This document shows, in pieces, positions 8,211-47,644 of a DNA stretch of 55,803 bases. The DNA comes from Anaerolineales bacterium. GTDB taxonomy: Bacteria > Chloroflexota > Anaerolineae > Anaerolineales > Villigracilaceae. The stretch is taken from positions 1-55,803 of the forward strand of contig JADGQB010000002.1 in NCBI GenBank assembly GCA_017882145.1, read 5' to 3'. A program made the translations under genes and the position numbers. Numbering within the stretch: position 1 is the stretch's first letter; the number at the start of each line of letters is the position of its first letter. The notes under the pieces are model-generated. The model was not told where the DNA came from, searched no databases, and saw only the letters and a list, made by a program, of their open reading frames with translations.

Positions 8211-8867
8211 CTAATCCACAGACGGGTTTTCCAACCGGATGCCGTGTCCACGAACAGTAATGATATAAGGGTGCGCAGGATCAATGGCGGCAATCCGGTC
8301 GCGCAGGCGGCGCAGGAGTGCATCCAGAGCCTGATCCGATACTCCGATGGCTTGCTCCTCACCCCAGGCATCTGTCACTAATTGATGCCGATCTACAACC
8401 TGACCCTGGTTCTCGAATAAGACTCGTAATACGTGGAATTGCAGAGCGGAAAGCGGCGGATCGATCAGGCGATCATCCACCCACACACGACGTGAACGCA
8501 TATCCAGCCGTAATCGTCCCGGATGAGCCTCAGCTTCGCTTAGTGGGACAGTCGCATCCGATGTAAGGAACAGGAACTGCTGGGCTAGGGCAATTTGCAC
8601 TGTGTCGCCGTCTTTTAGCACCATCTGACCTGCCACAGGGTTGCCATTGCAATGCGTTCCATTCTTGCTATCCAGATCTTCCAGTAACATTCCCTCAGGT
8701 GTTGGGGTAATCCGGGCATGGAATCGAGAAACCATCCGGTCTGCAACCACAATTTCGCAAGTGGTTTCCCGTCCAATCAGCATCGGCTTGTTTAAGGTCC
8801 AACGCTGGCCCTTTAGGGGCCCGTTTTGTGCGATCAACAAAGGCGACTCTGATAGATTCCCTTCCAT
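8211..8867 (-). CDS. FHA domain plus OmpR-type winged-helix DNA-binding protein
   Basis: FHA: 'LIGRETTCEIVVADRMVSRFHARITPTPEGMLLEDLDSKNGTHCNG'. C-terminal wHTH: 'LSALQFHVLRVLFENQGQVVDRHQLVTDAWGEEQ...LRDRIAAIDPAHPYIITVRGHGIRL'. Start taken as ATG 8867. Confidence 0.88.
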   Translation of the reverse strand: MEGNLSESPLLIAQNGPLKGQRWTLNKPMLIGRETTCEIVVADRMVSRFHARITPTPEGMLLEDLDSKNGTHCNGNPVAGQMVLKDGDTVQIALAQQFLFLTSDATVPLSEAEAHPGRLRLDMRSRRVWVDDRLIDPPLSALQFHVLRVLFENQGQVVDRHQLVTDAWGEEQAIGVSDQALDALLRRLRDRIAAIDPAHPYIITVRGHGIRLENPSVD

Positions 8868-9019
8868 GCTTACCTCAATCCTCTCCAAATGAATTATACA
8901 ACAAGAGGACAAAAGACGCTTATAATATAACAAAGAATGAACGGATTCGCAACGCTGGCTAAATACGCCGAACCCCCAGCCACGTTCTGCTTTTTTCGTT
9001 CGCTGCAAATCGGATCAAT

Positions 9020-10012
9020 ATGCCTGTCGCGCTTAAACCCGAAGATGTACTGCGCGGCCGTTATCGCATTCATGAGCGCATCGGCCAAGGAGGCATGGGT
9101 AATATCTACCTTGCCGATGACCTCCGATTGGAAGGTCGCTTTTGCGCTCTCAAAGAAGTCGAACACGACCGCACGGTACCAATAAAGCTACTCAAGGAAG
9201 CCCGGCAGCAGTTCCTGCATGAGGCCACGGTATTGGCGCGGCTGGACCATCCCAATCTGCCTAAAGTCTCGGATTTTTTCTCGGTTGGCCCACGCGATTA
9301 CCTGGTGATGGACTACATCCCCGGTAAAGACCTGCGTACAATAATGTTGGATGCCAAGCAGAACAACACTTTCCTAAGTGAGGAAAACGTACTTAGTTGG
9401 GCTAACCAACTGGCGGATGCCTTAACCTATTTGCACGGGCAGACTCCCCCACTCGTCCACCGCGATGTAAAGCCATCCAATCTAAAGATCACTCCCAATG
9501 GTGTCCTCAAGCTGGTGGATTTTGGCCTGGTTAAAGCACTCGTACCGGATGAGATGACCATTACTGTCATTCAAGGACGCGGTACGGCGCTCTACACCCC
9601 TCTGGAACAATATGGTGGCGATGGATTACATACGGACATTCGCAGTGACATCTACGCCTACGGCTGCACCCTATATCACCTAATGACAAATACTCCGCCT
9701 GCAGACGCCCGCCAGCGTTTCCTTCATCCGGAAAGTCTACCGCAGCCTCGGGGACTCAATCCCGCCATCAGTCCTCGTACGGAACGTGCCATTTTGTGGG
9801 CGATGGAACTGCATCCGGATGATCGCCCGGGTTCAGTTGAGGAATTGCGACAGTTCCTGATTGGGACGCGTGAATTACCTGTCCGGCCGCTTGTTCAAAT
9901 TCGCCCGAAGAACCCTGTCCGTGATTTTGCCATGGGAAAACCAGAACGGGTGCTTGTATGGGCCTCCGTTGGGCTACTACTGGTCAGCCTGGTGGCTTCC
10001 TTGATCCCCTAG
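9020..10012 (+). CDS. Serine/threonine protein kinase (PknB/Hanks type) with C-terminal TM segment
   Basis: 'GQGGMGNIYLADD', 'CALKEVE', 'HRDVKPSNLKI', 'VDFGLVK', 'SDIYAYGCTLYHLMT'. Hydrophobic C-terminus 'VLVWASVGLLLVSLVASLIP'. Confidence 0.95.
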   Translation: MPVALKPEDVLRGRYRIHERIGQGGMGNIYLADDLRLEGRFCALKEVEHDRTVPIKLLKEARQQFLHEATVLARLDHPNLPKVSDFFSVGPRDYLVMDYIPGKDLRTIMLDAKQNNTFLSEENVLSWANQLADALTYLHGQTPPLVHRDVKPSNLKITPNGVLKLVDFGLVKALVPDEMTITVIQGRGTALYTPLEQYGGDGLHTDIRSDIYAYGCTLYHLMTNTPPADARQRFLHPESLPQPRGLNPAISPRTERAILWAMELHPDDRPGSVEELRQFLIGTRELPVRPLVQIRPKNPVRDFAMGKPERVLVWASVGLLLVSLVASLIP

Positions 10013-29898: not shown

Positions 29899-29975
29899 GG
29901 GCGCGTAGCTCAGTTGGTTAGAGCGCATCACTCACATTGATGAGGTCGGGAGTTCAAGTCTCTTCGCGCCCACCA
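29899..29975 (+). tRNA. tRNA-Val, anticodon CAC, encoded CCA
   Basis: Acceptor GGGCGCG/CGCGCCC. D-loop 'AGCTCAGTTGGTTAGAGC'. Anticodon arm CATCA-CTCACAT-TGATG (CAC). T-arm with GTTCAAGTC; A discriminator then CCA. Confidence 0.93.
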
Positions 29976-29999
29976 AAGAGGCCTTTACGGGCCTCTTTT
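29976..29999 (+). terminator. tRNA terminator
   Basis: AAAGAGGCC-TTTAC(G)-GGCCTCTTTT immediately after the tRNA. Confidence 0.75.
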
Positions 30000-30158: not shown

Positions 30159-30267
30159 AGTTCCTTAATAATTTTCAGATGGGGCTTAGGATATTTGGAA
30201 ATCCATCAAACAAGGCTGTCAAAAGAACTGGATTAAGAGATAATAGGGTCAACCACGGAGGCGGACG

Positions 30268-32907
30268 ATGACTAAAAAAGAACAAATCGTGATCGTTACT
30301 GGCGATATCGCCATGGATTGGAACCTGGCGCGCACCCGCCGCTCCAAGAGCGATATCTCTTTCTGGAGTGCGGATGACACCACCAGTACCACCTGGCAGC
30401 GTGGCGGGGCTGCCCTGCTGGCAGACCTGGTTGAGGCAATCAGCGCGGGTGTGCAGAAGAGCGCTGCGAAACAATTATCCATCCGTCAGACTGCCGCGCC
30501 GTGCAAATCCGGTCTGGTACAGCCAGATAACGATCTTTATCATCATTCATACGCCATGTGGTCCCAGTTCAAGTATGAGAACAAACCGGCCTGGCGGGTG
30601 GAAGAATTCCTGGGCCTGGACCGGGCCAATAGTGATGCCATTCAGGATTGGCAGAAAGTGGTAAACGATACTCCGGAAGCCGATCTGTTAATACTGGATG
30701 ATGCCGACCTGGGGTTCCGAAAGGCTCCGGATCTCTGGCCAGTGGCTCTGCACACCCAGGGAAAAGCTCGTCCCTGGATCTTGCTCAAGATGGCCCGTCC
30801 CCTGGCTCAGGGCCCGCTCTGGGAGCATCTGCATAAGGATTTCTCAGACAGGCTGATCGTGGTTGCCACAGTGGACGACCTGCGCTTGAGTGAAGTCCAG
30901 ATCAGCCGGGAGCTTTCGTGGGAACGCACCGCCCAGGATATTTTCTGGGAGCTTGTCCATAATCCATGTGTCAACTCGCTCTCCCACTGCGCTCACATCC
31001 TTATCTCCTTCGGACCGGCTGGAGTGATCCTGCTCTCCCGCCAGGAAAGCAAGGATCAGCCATTTTTTAAATGTTCACTGTTCTTCGATCCAAAAGGCAT
31101 CGAACGCATGTGGGAAAAGGAATTTCCTGGAGGGATGATCGGCTACAATACCTGCCTGTCAGCCGGCGTGGCGCGCCAGGTTATGATCTCGCCCGACAAT
31201 CCCGATATCCAGGCCGGGATCCAGTCGGGGTTGGCTGCCATGCGCAGCCTGCACCAGGATGGCTATGGCGAACGCGGCATGCCAGCCTCCCAGGCCAGAC
31301 TCGTCTTTCCAATCGCCAGGATTGCGAAAGTTCTGGAAGGATCTGCGAGCCACTTTGCCGAGATCCAGGTTCAGGACCCGATGAATTTCATCCGGCAGAG
31401 CGGCGAGGCTTCCGAGAAACCACTGACGGAAGGCTTCTGGACCATCCTGCAGGACAAGTTCAGGGGAGGACTGGATCAGGTCGCCATGCAGGTTGTTTTA
31501 GAGGGTCCGGAGGTCGCGTTACAGGGTGTGCCATGGGGCCAGTTCGGTAATCTGTTAACGGTTGACCGCCAGGAGATCGAGAGCTACCGCAGCATACGCA
31601 ACTTGGTAGCCGAGTATGCCGGACAAAGACAGGTGGCGCGACCCCTTTCGATCGCAGTCTTTGGCACACCCGGATCGGGCAAGTCCTTTGGCGTCACCGA
31701 GATGGCGAAGTCGCTCCTGCCCGGCCAGATCGAACCGATCACCTTCAATCTTTCACAATTCGACCATCCGGGAGATTTATTGTCGGCCTTCCATCAGGTG
31801 CGGGATATCGGCCTGAGCGGGAAAATCCCGCTGGTGTTTTGGGACGAGTTCGACACTACCTTGGCGGAAACGCCATTGGGCTGGCTGCGTTATTTCCTGG
31901 CGCCCATGCAGGACGGCAAGTTCCAGGAGGGTCAGATCAATCATCCGATCGGGCGGTCTATCTTCGTTTTCGCAGGCGGGACCAGTTCCAGCATGGAAGA
32001 ATTTAACCGGGGCACAGAGGCAGGCTTTAAATCAGCCAAAGGACCGGATTTCGTCAGCCGGCTCAAGGGCTACATTAATGTGCTCGGCCCAAACCCGGTC
32101 GCAGACCGCGCAGGCGACCCTTACTTCATCATCCGCCGGGCGATCCTGTTGCGCTCGAGCTTGAAACGTGGCACGCCCCAACTTTTAGAGAAACATGATG
32201 GAAAGGAATTGCTCAATATCGACCGGGGAGTCCTGCGTGCGTTACTGAAGATCGACAAATACAAGCACGGTGCGCGCTCGATCGAGTCGCTGCTGGCCAT
32301 GAGCCAGTTGACCGGCAAGACTGCTTTCGAGCGCTCCTGCCTGCCGTCCGAATCACAGCTGGATCTGCACGTGGATGGCAAGACCTTCCTCTCCCTTGTG
32401 CAGCAGGTGGAGTTGGAAGGGCCAATGCTCGAAAGCCTGGCAGAAGCTGCTCATGTAGTTTACTGTGAAGGGGAGCAGGCACGCGGTTTTAAATATGGCT
32501 CGAAAACCGATAAACAACGCAAGATCAATAACGCGTTGGTAGCTTATGCCGAATTACCGGAAGAAATGAAGCAAGCCAATCGTTTGAACGTGCGCGACAT
32601 TCCATCCAAGCTGTCCGTGGCCAGATACATTATGATCCCGGCTCGTAGCAATGAACCGGCCTTCAATTTCCCGGGTGATGACCTGGAAATGTTGGCCGAA
32701 GCAGAGCATAAACGCTGGATGCAATCCAAGCTTGACGAAGGTTGGGCATATGCACCCAAGACGGACCGGGCAAAGAAGTTGCATAATTGTCTGGTTGCCT
32801 GGGAGAATCTGCCTGATAAGGAAAAAGAGAAAGACCGTGATCTGGTACGAGGCATCCCGCGGATCCTGGCGCGTGCCGGGTATGCAATCGTCAAAGCCAG
32901 TGCCTGA
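30268..32907 (+). CDS. AAA+ ATPase with N-terminal domain of uncertain fold and two C-terminal RyR-like repeats
   Basis: Walker A 'FGTPGSGKSFGVTEMAKSL' (31663..31686), Walker B 'PLVFWDEFD' (31831..31854). RyR-like repeats 'LAEAAHVVYCEGEQARGFKYGSKTDKQRKINNALVAYAELPEE...' and 'LAEAEHKRWMQSKLDEGWAYAPKTDRAKKLHNCLVAWENLPDKEKEKDRDLVRGIPRIL'. RBS GGAGG upstream of ATG. Confidence 0.85.
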   Translation: MTKKEQIVIVTGDIAMDWNLARTRRSKSDISFWSADDTTSTTWQRGGAALLADLVEAISAGVQKSAAKQLSIRQTAAPCKSGLVQPDNDLYHHSYAMWSQFKYENKPAWRVEEFLGLDRANSDAIQDWQKVVNDTPEADLLILDDADLGFRKAPDLWPVALHTQGKARPWILLKMARPLAQGPLWEHLHKDFSDRLIVVATVDDLRLSEVQISRELSWERTAQDIFWELVHNPCVNSLSHCAHILISFGPAGVILLSRQESKDQPFFKCSLFFDPKGIERMWEKEFPGGMIGYNTCLSAGVARQVMISPDNPDIQAGIQSGLAAMRSLHQDGYGERGMPASQARLVFPIARIAKVLEGSASHFAEIQVQDPMNFIRQSGEASEKPLTEGFWTILQDKFRGGLDQVAMQVVLEGPEVALQGVPWGQFGNLLTVDRQEIESYRSIRNLVAEYAGQRQVARPLSIAVFGTPGSGKSFGVTEMAKSLLPGQIEPITFNLSQFDHPGDLLSAFHQVRDIGLSGKIPLVFWDEFDTTLAETPLGWLRYFLAPMQDGKFQEGQINHPIGRSIFVFAGGTSSSMEEFNRGTEAGFKSAKGPDFVSRLKGYINVLGPNPVADRAGDPYFIIRRAILLRSSLKRGTPQLLEKHDGKELLNIDRGVLRALLKIDKYKHGARSIESLLAMSQLTGKTAFERSCLPSESQLDLHVDGKTFLSLVQQVELEGPMLESLAEAAHVVYCEGEQARGFKYGSKTDKQRKINNALVAYAELPEEMKQANRLNVRDIPSKLSVARYIMIPARSNEPAFNFPGDDLEMLAEAEHKRWMQSKLDEGWAYAPKTDRAKKLHNCLVAWENLPDKEKEKDRDLVRGIPRILARAGYAIVKASA

Positions 32908-32919
32908 GATGGGAGAAAC

Positions 32920-34953
32920 ATGATATTAACCGGCTTGGAACAAGATCATAATTGGGCTTCTCAACAAATCGAAGCCTACCGCCAGGTTTACCCGCGCTAT
33001 GTCAGGATGAGCCAGGTGCTCCAGCAGGTGCTCGAAAAAGCCTGCAAATTATCAGCTCCTCTGGCTATTCTCCAAACCCGCCCCAAAGCCATCCCCAGTT
33101 TCGCCGAGAAAGCCATCCGCAAGAAGAAAGCCGGCCGCTACAGCGACCCGCTGGTGCGCATGACCGATCTATGCGGCGGGCGCGTCATCACCCAGACCCT
33201 GGATGAGGTCCGGGCAGTCTGCGATTTCATCGAGAAGCATTTTGTGATTGATTCCGCCAATAGTGTGGATGTGAGCCAGCGACTCAAGCCCAGCGAGTTC
33301 GGCTACCGTTCGGTCCATTACATCGTACAATTCAAGCGCGAGGTCTTCCCTACCAGGGATATTCCCGTCGATGTCCCGGAAGAGCTCTATCCTGACGAAT
33401 CCAACCCGATGAAGGCCGAGATCCAGGTCCGAACCGTTCTGGAACATGCCTGGGCTGGTTTCGTTCATGATCGGGTTTACAAGAGCGCTTTTACCATCCC
33501 GCCCAGGTGGGAGCGCGAACTGGCAGGGCTGGCAGGTTCGTTGGAACAAACTGACCAGTCCTTCACGCGCATCCAATCCGGGCTAAAGACCTATGTAGCC
33601 AGTTATGGGTCTTATCTGAACGAAGAACAGTTGAAATCTGAAATTGGTATCCTGGAATCTGTACTGACCTGCGATCCGCAAAACCCGGACCTGGCGTACC
33701 GTCTCGGAAAACTCGCCATGGAGTTGGGGGATTGGCAAAAGGCTATCGATATTTTTAGCAAATACGAACACACCGGCTACCAGCCCATTTTACGCGACCT
33801 GGGAGTTGTTCTGTGCAAAGTGAACGCCAGGGATCCGCATGGGGAATCCTACCAACGTGGACAGAAATATTTGGAACTCGCCAGTTCCCCGCCCCACCGT
33901 GATCCGGATGCCCTGGCTTCGCTGGCAGGCACCTGGAAGAACCTCGACGAAGAAAAGACTCGCGAATATTATCGCCAGGCTTTTAGAGTGGATCCAACTG
34001 ATCCGTACGCGGTTAGCAATTACCTGGTCTACGAGATCATCCATCAGCGCGACATGGCGCCGGCCTCCCTGATGGCGCCCAGCCTGGCGGCCGCCATTCA
34101 GCGCAGCCATGACCAGGCTGAGGTTGGCATGAATATGCCCTGGGCCTTTTACAATCTCGGCATCTTCCACCTGCTCTTGGGCCAGCCTTATGAAAGCCTA
34201 TATGCCTATGCGCAAGCCATCCGCCTCAGTACTTCAGACTGGGTGGTCGAAACTTCCCTGCGCTTGCTCGATAAACTGTCGGCTGTTCAGGAGCTGATCC
34301 AGGGCTATGAGTGGGCACGCCGTACTTTAATACTCGGCCGTGCCGTTAAATTCGTTGATAAAACCTCCTTGGAAATGATCAAGAACTATACCAATGCCAA
34401 CAACTCCCCCATTACTGCACCGGTGGTAATTGTAGCTGGCGGTACGAGAGCTGACTTACGGGTTGATGTATATCGTCAGCTCCTGATCGAAGCCTTCGGT
34501 AGTTTTCGAGGAACAATCCTCGCAGGAGGAACAACTGCCGGGGTCAGCGGTCTAGTCGGTGAACTGCAGGCAGCCTACCCGGAGTCCATCTCAACCATCG
34601 GATATGTCCCGGCAATCCTCCCGGATGGAACCCACCTGGATCCGCAATACCGGCAAGTTCGTTCTACCAGCGGGACAGATTTCAGCGCCTTGGAACCTCT
34701 GCAAGTCTGGATGGATCTAATTGCCTCCGGGATTTCGCCCTCCCAAGTAAAACTTATTGGCCTCAATGGCGGGGAGATTGCCGCATATGAATATCGCCTG
34801 GCGCTCATGCTGGGCGCAAGTGTTGGCGTAATCGAGAGTAGCGGCAGGGAAGCTTCACGGCTCTTCAAGGATCCCGATTGGAGGAATTCGAAAAACCTTC
34901 TGAATCTTTCAGCCGACGGCCAGGAGTTGGCAGCGTTTATCCGATCAAAGTAA
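32920..34953 (+). CDS. RelA/SpoT-like nucleotide synthetase domain plus TPR-like repeats plus C-terminal SLOG/LOG-like domain
   Basis: RSD motifs 'DPLVRMTDLCGGRVITQTLDEVRAVCDFIEKHF', 'KPSEFGYRSVHYIVQF', 'KAEIQVRTVLEHAWAGFVHDRVYKS'. TPR-like region about 33640..34370. SLOG-like 'APVVIVAGGTRADLRVDVYRQLLIEAFGSFRGTILAGGTTAGVSGLVGELQAAYPES...KLIGLNGGEIAAYEYRLALMLGASVGVIESSGREA'. Starts 12 nt after the upstream stop. Confidence 0.85.
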   Translation: MILTGLEQDHNWASQQIEAYRQVYPRYVRMSQVLQQVLEKACKLSAPLAILQTRPKAIPSFAEKAIRKKKAGRYSDPLVRMTDLCGGRVITQTLDEVRAVCDFIEKHFVIDSANSVDVSQRLKPSEFGYRSVHYIVQFKREVFPTRDIPVDVPEELYPDESNPMKAEIQVRTVLEHAWAGFVHDRVYKSAFTIPPRWERELAGLAGSLEQTDQSFTRIQSGLKTYVASYGSYLNEEQLKSEIGILESVLTCDPQNPDLAYRLGKLAMELGDWQKAIDIFSKYEHTGYQPILRDLGVVLCKVNARDPHGESYQRGQKYLELASSPPHRDPDALASLAGTWKNLDEEKTREYYRQAFRVDPTDPYAVSNYLVYEIIHQRDMAPASLMAPSLAAAIQRSHDQAEVGMNMPWAFYNLGIFHLLLGQPYESLYAYAQAIRLSTSDWVVETSLRLLDKLSAVQELIQGYEWARRTLILGRAVKFVDKTSLEMIKNYTNANNSPITAPVVIVAGGTRADLRVDVYRQLLIEAFGSFRGTILAGGTTAGVSGLVGELQAAYPESISTIGYVPAILPDGTHLDPQYRQVRSTSGTDFSALEPLQVWMDLIASGISPSQVKLIGLNGGEIAAYEYRLALMLGASVGVIESSGREASRLFKDPDWRNSKNLLNLSADGQELAAFIRSK

Positions 34954-35001: not shown

Positions 35002-35031
35002 AAAAAATCGCCCTCATGAGCGATTTTTTTT
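35002..35031. terminator. Bidirectional terminator after the two-gene unit
   Basis: AAAAAATCGC-CCTCATGA-GCGATTTTTT. Confidence 0.8.
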
Positions 35032-46318: not shown

Positions 46319-47644
46319 ATGAAACCCAAAGTTTTCATCAGCTATGCATCCAGGGATGCGGAGATAGCCAACGCAGTTTGCAAGACACTTGAAGCCGAAG
46401 ACATCTGCTGTTGGATTGCGCCTCGTGACATCTTGCCCGGCGAAGAATACGCGGATGCGATTATTGAGGCGTTAAATAACTGTCAATTATTCCTGATTAT
46501 TCTCTCAGAAGAATCAAATTCCTCCCCACAGGTAAGGCGGGAGGTGGAACGGGCTGTCAGCAAGGATCTGTCCATCTTGACCTTCCGTATCGACAACACC
46601 ATCCTTTCCAAGGCGATGGAATACTACCTTTCCAACCGGCATTGGCTGGATGCTTCCAATGCGGTCTTATCGAAACAATTGCACAGTTTGAAAGATGCGG
46701 TTCGTAATCTCCTTGAGCAGTCCTCTTCTCCAAAGGATGAAACCAACCTATCCAAGCCGGTCGAGGATATTGAACCAGTGCTGCCGGTTTCCCCAGTGCT
46801 GAGTACAACTCCTGCTTCACTGCCACCTTCCAAACCACTCAGGACACACAAAAATAACGTTACTATCTGGATCTTAGTACCTACTCTTTTTATTATCCTT
46901 GTAACGATCGTGTATTTCGGGTTGGCTGGTAAAGGCGATTTTCCCATTTTTAGCCGGCAAACCGCGACAATGACACCCATTCCAACCTCCACGATCGACT
47001 CCTTCGCAACGGCTCAATCATTCACTGCAACTTTGGCAGCGATAACCTCATATAGTTGGGTACAAGAATTTGCTGAGCCAATCCTCTCACAAATTGCTAA
47101 TCGTTCCCCGGATTTCCATGATGATTTTTCAAACCCGGATTGGTCTTCCGGCAATTGGAACTATTTCGCAGGAGCCTCCATCGAAAATGGGCAACTGGTT
47201 ATTGCTGCTACGAATCAGTGGCAAGGCGCAGGTATTACAGCACAAGGGAGTGATTTTGTTGGCAAGTTCAAATTCACTATGACAAAAGCCACCTCAAAAT
47301 CACTTTCATTTGGTTTCACTTTTAGAGGAGATCCGACCGGAGCTACCGCTAACGATTTCACTTTTGGCGCCGATGGCTGGTGTGGTTTTGGCGAGGTTGG
47401 TTCGGCGACCAGAAATACAATCATCAATGAGTGCAAGACTTCGATGCCCGACCTGGAACAACCCACTATAGTGACTATTATCGTTCAGGGCAATCAGGCT
47501 GCCGCCTACTTAAATGGGGTACCCATGCTCTATCAGGAAGGCGTTTTTCATTCTGGGAATGAGATTGCGATTGGTACTACGATAGCAATCGGGACAGCTA
47601 CAGTTTCCCTTGATGACTTTGAACTTTGGAACTTGAACAGGTAG
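46319..47644 (+). CDS. TIR domain protein with TM helix and extracytoplasmic lectin-like (concanavalin-type) domain
   Basis: TIR: 'KPKVFISYASRDAEIANAVCKTLEAEDICCWIAPRDILPGEEYADAIIEALNNCQLFLIILSEESNSSPQVRREVERAV'. TM 'VTIWILVPTLFIILVTIVYFGLAG'. C-terminal 'HDDFSNPDWSSGNWNYFAGASIENGQLVI...VSLDDFELWNL'. Confidence 0.85.
   Translation: MKPKVFISYASRDAEIANAVCKTLEAEDICCWIAPRDILPGEEYADAIIEALNNCQLFLIILSEESNSSPQVRREVERAVSKDLSILTFRIDNTILSKAMEYYLSNRHWLDASNAVLSKQLHSLKDAVRNLLEQSSSPKDETNLSKPVEDIEPVLPVSPVLSTTPASLPPSKPLRTHKNNVTIWILVPTLFIILVTIVYFGLAGKGDFPIFSRQTATMTPIPTSTIDSFATAQSFTATLAAITSYSWVQEFAEPILSQIANRSPDFHDDFSNPDWSSGNWNYFAGASIENGQLVIAATNQWQGAGITAQGSDFVGKFKFTMTKATSKSLSFGFTFRGDPTGATANDFTFGADGWCGFGEVGSATRNTIINECKTSMPDLEQPTIVTIIVQGNQAAAYLNGVPMLYQEGVFHSGNEIAIGTTIAIGTATVSLDDFELWNLNR

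Follow-up and report, generated by a model that had tools for sequence, protein, structure and literature searches.

In 2015 Burroughs et al. reportedly used comparative genomics to predict, in outline, conflict systems built on SLOG and RyR domains, and we know of no host function assigned so far to bacterial RyR domains. Here we consider a locus at positions 30268-34953 of a 55,803-nucleotide stretch of DNA from an Anaerolineales bacterium of the Chloroflexota (contig JADGQB010000002.1, assembly GCA_017882145.1; hereafter the window), in which domains of both kinds meet a RelA/SpoT synthetase. Three described systems are relevant. In Thoeris, ThsA is a SIR2 domain joined to SLOG and is activated by 2'/3'-cyclic ADP-ribose (cADPR) (PMC11204291). 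In 2026, binding or cleavage of cADPR immune signals was demonstrated for the first phage RyR proteins: six of eight assayed homologues bind them, and RyDEP, a phage PF02026 protein with key residues H75, W78, H100 and D117, both binds and cleaves 2'/3'-cADPR (PMC13232231). Finally, RyR Repeat12 binds ADP and ATP analogues, and in human RyR3 the adenine stacks on Trp880, with Lys884, Arg895 and Arg1018 contacting the phosphates (PMC12627627).

The locus comprises two open reading frames (ORFs) on one strand, separated by 12 nucleotides: ORF1 (30268-32907, + strand; 879 residues from an ATG start), with the domain order ribokinase-like, AAA+, RyR, RyR, and ORF2 (32920-34953, + strand; 677 residues), which runs from a RelA/SpoT synthetase through TPR repeats to SLOG. 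These are not chance reading frames, since both are long and conserved and a GTDB-wide scan found 236 relatives of ORF1. A first-pass annotation of the DNA had placed both genes exactly, and its reading of ORF1 (Walker A and B, two RyR-like repeats) and of ORF2 (RelA/SpoT, TPR, SLOG), together with its link to nucleotide-signalling conflict systems, is supported by what follows; the ribokinase-like domain and the larger gene neighbourhood are additions. In our judgement the chances are about even that ORF1 and ORF2 form a rare composite of a widespread RyR/SLOG nucleotide-signalling conflict system working by the logic of Thoeris. The signals driving such a system would probably be small nucleotides such as cADPR. 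A literature search retrieved no description of the combination of an AAA-RyR protein with a RelA/SpoT-TPR-SLOG protein, and PADLOC holds no model for AAA-RyR or channel-RyR proteins, offering for this locus the candidate PDC-S33 alone, for the RelA/SpoT part (E = 8e-18).

The RyR repeats of ORF1 are recognised by profile (Pfam E = 4.6e-24; 85 bits against a cut-off of 27.4). The first is diverged (32422-32601, + strand; PF02026 E = 2.4e-8; H729, Y732, N754, N771), and the second (32686-32892, + strand; E = 6e-15) carries H814, W817, H839 and D856, which correspond to the four key residues of RyDEP with identical spacing and a constant offset of 739. In an alignment of 53 relatives, the basis of all conservation figures given for ORF1, the histidine, tryptophan and aspartate of this set are retained in 48 and all four residues in 37. 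Foldseek matches the C-terminus to RyR Repeat12 structures (6uhi, 9l9b and 9ls7, the last two nucleotide-bound), and the equivalents of RyR3 Trp880 (W817, 50/53) and of its first lysine (K821, 44/53) are likewise kept. Because the RyDEP residues are present at the same spacing, we predict that the RyR region of ORF1 binds signals of the ADP-ribose type and may also hydrolyse them. ORF1 resembles RyDEP in its PF02026 domain, but the latter is a phage protein which removes host signals, whereas the repeats here belong to a host AAA+ protein (PMC13232231). All four residues recur in a second protein of the same genome, an RCK/TrkA_N channel with an RyR domain (H538, W541, H563, D580), encoded on another contig than the module (locus L022, contig C287, 1569-3407, - strand).

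Upstream of the repeats lies an AAA+ ATPase domain (31555-32403, + strand; approximately residues 430-712), delimited from weak Pfam AAA matches and a conserved block; the whole-domain match is under the Pfam cut-off. Its Walker A motif GTPGSGKS (31663-31686, + strand; residues 466-473) has K472 and S473 in 53/53 relatives, as do D526, E527 and D529 of the Walker B motif LVFWDEFD (31831-31854, + strand; residues 522-529), and R598, R623, R624 and R670 are also invariant. As judged from its sequence, this ATPase is intact. The N-terminal domain (30280-31272, + strand; approximately residues 5-335) has a ribokinase/PfkB-like fold in an AlphaFold2 model of ORF1 with a mean predicted local distance difference test score of 87 and a predicted template-modelling score of 0.80. 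Foldseek aligns it with 3q1y, 3ie7 and 3hic at E of about 2e-8, with a template-modelling score (target) of 0.49-0.56 and a root-mean-square deviation of about 8 Å over some 390 columns. Sequence-level PfkB matches were sought with HMMER against the PDB, with Pfam on 34 members and with hhalign to eight PfkB proteins, all negatively, after which sequence-level homology was dropped and the claim of a shared fold alone kept. The position of the GAGD aspartate of PfkB enzymes, assigned by eye, reads G-Y in ORF1 (Y293 in 38/53), so that a role in binding, not kinase activity, is to be expected of this domain.

ORF2 begins with a RelA/SpoT synthetase domain (32950-33594, + strand; residues 11-225) matching PF04607 with E = 2.4e-15 and 57 bits, against a curated cut-off of 27. 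The closest solved structures, with which it aligns in the PDB, are the small alarmone synthetases 3l9d, 2be3 and 5ded. Alignment with 5ded and 3l9d finds the substrate, magnesium and catalytic motifs retained (R-x-K, D-x-x-G-x-R, GYRS-x-H and E-x-Q-x-R), and R54-x-K56, K64, D83/G86/R88, Y129/R130/H133 and E167/Q169/R171 are invariant in all seven ORF2 homologues. These motifs line up with residues we take to be R46, K48, K56, D72, R77, Y116 and E139 of Bacillus subtilis RelQ. With its motifs intact, the domain is presumably an active synthetase. It is followed by a TPR superhelix (33622-34347, + strand; approximately residues 235-476) recognised by the Pfam TPR entry (E = 6e-9), by TPR-S (3e-4, below the curated cut-off) and by a structural model (mean local score 68, built from four sequences), for which TPR proteins are the sole kind among the fold matches listed. 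The C-terminus (34417-34950, + strand; residues 500-677; PF18171) is, by its conserved glycine-rich motifs GGT-x-AGV and GG-x-IA-x2-EY, a putative LSDAT-type SLOG domain whose Pfam score falls just under the cut-off. TAL-effector matches of this region were rejected as the sum of weak repeats with no single significant stretch. Searches for ORF2 on viral contigs returned nothing, and on plasmids RelA/SpoT-domain matches only.

The organization of ORF2, an effector domain with a putative C-terminal SLOG sensor, resembles that of ThsA (PMC11204291), and most homologues share with Thoeris a TIR gene close by. The locus differs from Thoeris in having, in place of SIR2, a RelA/SpoT synthetase as effector, joined on by a TPR linker (no SIR2-SLOG or macro-TM ThsA is present), in the additional RyR domains, AAA+ protein and RCK channel, and in an operon without a TIR gene. 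The synthetase fold and motifs are shared with the small alarmone synthetases YjbM/RelQ and YwaC/RelP and with toxSAS/CapRel, but in ORF2 they are fused to TPR and SLOG and, in some relatives, to RyR as well. The RyR part and the putative SLOG part belong to the same Pfam families as RyR Repeat12 and the LSDAT region of TRPM, which serve animal calcium channels as ligand-binding modules; here they are found in bacteria and placed on an ATPase and a synthetase.

To see the genes with which ORF1 is usually found, 80 loci were kept from the GTDB-wide scan, and genes were counted with home-made profiles over all ORFs in 81 ORF1 loci (82 for TIR and DUF4062). The nearest named relatives are metagenome-assembled genomes of Anaerolineae and Chloroflexota, and the kept loci extend to Acidobacteriota, Bacteroidota, Planctomycetota, Actinomycetota, Chlorobiaceae, deltaproteobacteria and one archaeal metagenome-assembled genome labelled as a methanogen. 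The usual partner, present in 43/81 loci, is a small SLOG-type gene, SLOG1, assigned to this class from its consensus motif (GHR...EGADR...GGTGE) with no significant Pfam match. SLOG1 is the commonest gene directly 3' of ORF1 (28 loci, with gaps mostly of -4 to 24 nucleotides) and in ten loci is fused to the ORF1 C-terminus (L054, L060, L066, L067, L072, L081, L088, L097, L109 and L110). Fusion and adjacency, taken together, point to joint action of ORF1 with SLOG proteins. An RCK channel with two transmembrane segments, TrkA_N and usually RyR occurs in 26/81 loci, TIR genes in 29/82 and DUF4062 genes, mostly NACHT-WD40, in 24/82. The presence of SLOG, TIR, SLATT and NACHT neighbours is as in the predicted SLOG/SLATT/RyR conflict systems.

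Several individual loci deserve mention. SLOG1 is joined to probable SLATT/DUF4231-like membrane regions beside ORF1 in L036, L075 and L099; the extended SLOG1 of L099 was scanned and gave a weak SLATT/DUF4231 match, and the other two cluster with it. A gene of about 400 codons adjoining ORF1 in L043, L075 and L100 has weak similarity to nucleoside deoxyribosyltransferases and CAP12-type TIR proteins. The archaeal example (L033, labelled Methanomicrobia) has RyR repeats and NACHT-WD40 neighbours. The ribokinase-like and AAA+ part of ORF1 also occurs, without RyR, on a contig from a viral collection (L136, 4254-7145), a homologue on Methylobacterium plasmid pA (L029) has transposase genes and a large gene of the SIR2 family in its vicinity, and a sigma-54 activator gene lies directly 3' of ORF1 in L050 (12767-14455).

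Where ORF2 fits into this picture is suggested by its own distribution. An ORF2-type gene is found in just four of the 81 ORF1 loci (the window, L031, L032 and L050), directly adjacent in two, and never in the same locus as SLOG1 (Fisher p = 0.044, on small numbers). Since the two never co-occur, ORF2 appears to fill the SLOG slot of ORF1 loci. BLAST and hhalign detected no direct similarity between SLOG1 and the ORF2 SLOG, so that they are either different SLOG branches or too distant for detection. When 396 genomes from the class were searched independently with an ORF2 profile, this added three ORF2 homologues (L168, L169, L170), each adjoining an RCK-RyR channel in a genome from which ORF1 is absent, which makes three of the seven ORF2 genomes. 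An RCK channel is in fact found in cis at all six ORF2 loci outside the source genome. In L050 it is situated beyond the ORF2 homologue; in L031 the channel gene (8462-9883), beside ORF1, ends just before the RyR region and is followed by a DUF4062-like scrap, the two being a rearranged effector. The channel of the source genome is sister in the tree to the ORF2-linked L050 channel (99/95 support). The linked bacterial channel resembles CASTOR/POLLUX RCK channels in its TrkA_N/RCK domains and has no TVGYG filter. ORF2 homologues in L032, L050, L168 and L169 carry a fused C-terminal RyR domain, TIR genes lie near five of the six other homologues, and NUDIX genes, possible ADP-ribose hydrolases, adjoin those of L032, L050 and L169. 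The first-pass annotation had seen a self-contained two-gene module. The genes are indeed paired between terminators here, but a two-gene unit as a general rule has to be rejected, as ORF2 occurs without ORF1 and its constant neighbour is the RCK channel. Rare adjacency of homologues thus counts in part against the ORF1-ORF2 pair and not against the wider system.

From the domains, motif conservation, fusions and neighbourhoods observed, we infer a ligand, a direction of control and an immune role, along the following lines. An infected or stressed cell would first produce an NAD-derived signal such as a cADPR by means of a TIR protein. To judge from residues and homologues, the receptors of this signal would be RyR domains (in ORF1 and in the RCK channel), the ORF2 SLOG domain, or both. 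The bound SLOG domain might then act through the TPR superhelix as a relay to switch on the RelA/SpoT synthetase, whose intact motifs suggest that it could make an alarmone or pyrophosphorylate RNA and so stop growth; the RyR/RCK channel encoded elsewhere in the genome would provide a second, membrane effector. ORF1 would be an ATP-driven controller, its RyR repeats sensing or hydrolysing the signal and its AAA+ motor setting a threshold or remodelling a partner. The conflict-system interpretation is supported by the patchy distribution, with ORF2 homologues lacking in ten further same-genus genomes. A more specific and distinctly tentative proposal, which we think rather doubtful in its entirety, is that of a host immune system in which cADPR-type signals, through RyR and SLOG, gate the RCK channel and the RelA/SpoT synthetase under the AAA+/RyR ATPase; it would be a counterpart of animal cADPR-RyR and ADP-ribose-TRPM2 signalling and a target that phage RyDEP could counter.

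Several observations weigh against the Thoeris-like interpretation. The operon contains no TIR gene, the nearest lying 11.4 kb off among metabolic genes; the flanks are housekeeping genes and not a defence island; and the RyR channel of the source genome is unlinked to ORF1 and ORF2. The equivalents of RyR3 Arg895 and Arg1018 are not retained in ORF1. The SLOG domain of ORF2 (LSDAT_prok, the SLOG of TRPM) is matched at 3e-4 and that of the L023 homologue at 7e-5, scores of 20.6 and 22.5 bits that are under the cut-off of 25.4. Finally, two of the eight assayed phage RyR homologues gave no stable cADPR complex in electrophoretic mobility shift assays (PMC13232231).

The main rival, which we consider unlikely, reverses the flow: an adenosine- or guanosine-based alarmone made by ORF2 would be the ligand of the RyR domains in both ORF1 and the RCK channel, with SLOG and TPR sensing the trigger. 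The intact synthetase motifs fit this, as does the binding of ADP and ATP analogues by RyR Repeat12 (PMC12627627), and a maker-and-receptor pair would be expected to show just what ORF2 homologues do, which is to lie always near an RCK channel, in 4/7 cases with RyR fused, and in three genomes to accompany the channel without ORF1. Such a scheme accounts for the ORF2-channel link but not for RyR loci without a RelA/SpoT gene. Since these are the majority among ORF1 and channel loci and yet retain the RyR pocket, it is improbable that RyR domains in general have a RelA/SpoT product as their ligand.

The same distribution bears on a toxin-antitoxin-like pair, in which ORF2 would be a toxSAS-type growth inhibitor restrained or refolded by ORF1, no small-molecule messenger being needed. 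RelA/SpoT toxins are known (toxSAS, CapRel), the genes are closely spaced on a common strand and the PDC-S33 match falls in the RelA/SpoT part, but ORF1 is missing in three ORF2 genomes and an ORF2-type gene in 77/81 ORF1 loci; because neither partner is obligate, and with ordinary alarmone synthetases as the nearest solved structures, we find a plain pair of this sort hardly probable. Quite improbable also is a chromosomal stress regulator outside immunity, with ORF1 and ORF2 tuning alarmone or NAD/ADP-ribose turnover under metabolic stress and the ORF1 RyR domains and the NUDIX proteins of relatives degrading ADP-ribose-type metabolites. The retained H/D glycosidase dyad of RyDEP, the NUDIX genes beside some ORF2 homologues and the housekeeping flanks are in keeping with it, but patchy occurrence and the association with TIR, NACHT-WD40 and SLOG-SLATT genes are typical of conflict systems.

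The immediate surroundings of the locus can be summarized briefly. A tRNA-Val (cac) gene found by ARAGORN (29899-29975, + strand) forms the upstream boundary, followed by a likely terminator, a stem-loop with a T-run (29977-29999, + strand), and a GGAGG ribosome-binding site precedes ORF1 (30257-30261, + strand). Downstream, a bidirectional terminator with a 12-bp stem and A/T flanks separates convergent genes (35002-35029), so that the bounding terminators proposed in the first-pass annotation are both in place. No channel remnant was found in the gap upstream of ORF1. The flanking genes encode a lactate/malate dehydrogenase, a thioredoxin-reductase-like oxidoreductase, a diacylglycerol kinase and an EamA transporter, and the GC content of the module (0.53-0.57) is not clearly different from theirs. 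The source genome is fragmented (4.15 Mb in 448 contigs); two flanking proteins match genomes of the same genus at approximately 64-77%, and the contig therefore belongs to it. In those genomes the trxB-like oxidoreductase and diacylglycerol kinase neighbours lie on separate contigs, and an empty site, marking tRNA integration, is thus not demonstrable. The TIR gene mentioned above (46319-47644, + strand; TIR_2, 8e-20), near glycosyl hydrolase genes downstream of the module, encodes a protein in which a TIR domain is accompanied by a single transmembrane stretch and a C-terminal domain. Its TIR part is 41-47% identical to TIR domains beside several ORF1 and ORF2 homologues, and the protein is a possible signal source and a putative member of the system.

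What emerges is a widespread family of host RyR proteins that have the residues of RyDEP and are linked with SLOG and TIR as well as with an RCK channel. With it, the idea that bacterial RyR domains are receptors of immune signals becomes directly testable, as does the question of whether the animal cADPR-RyR link has bacterial roots. ORF2, for its part, would extend the range of signal-gated effectors to an alarmone synthetase that arrests growth.

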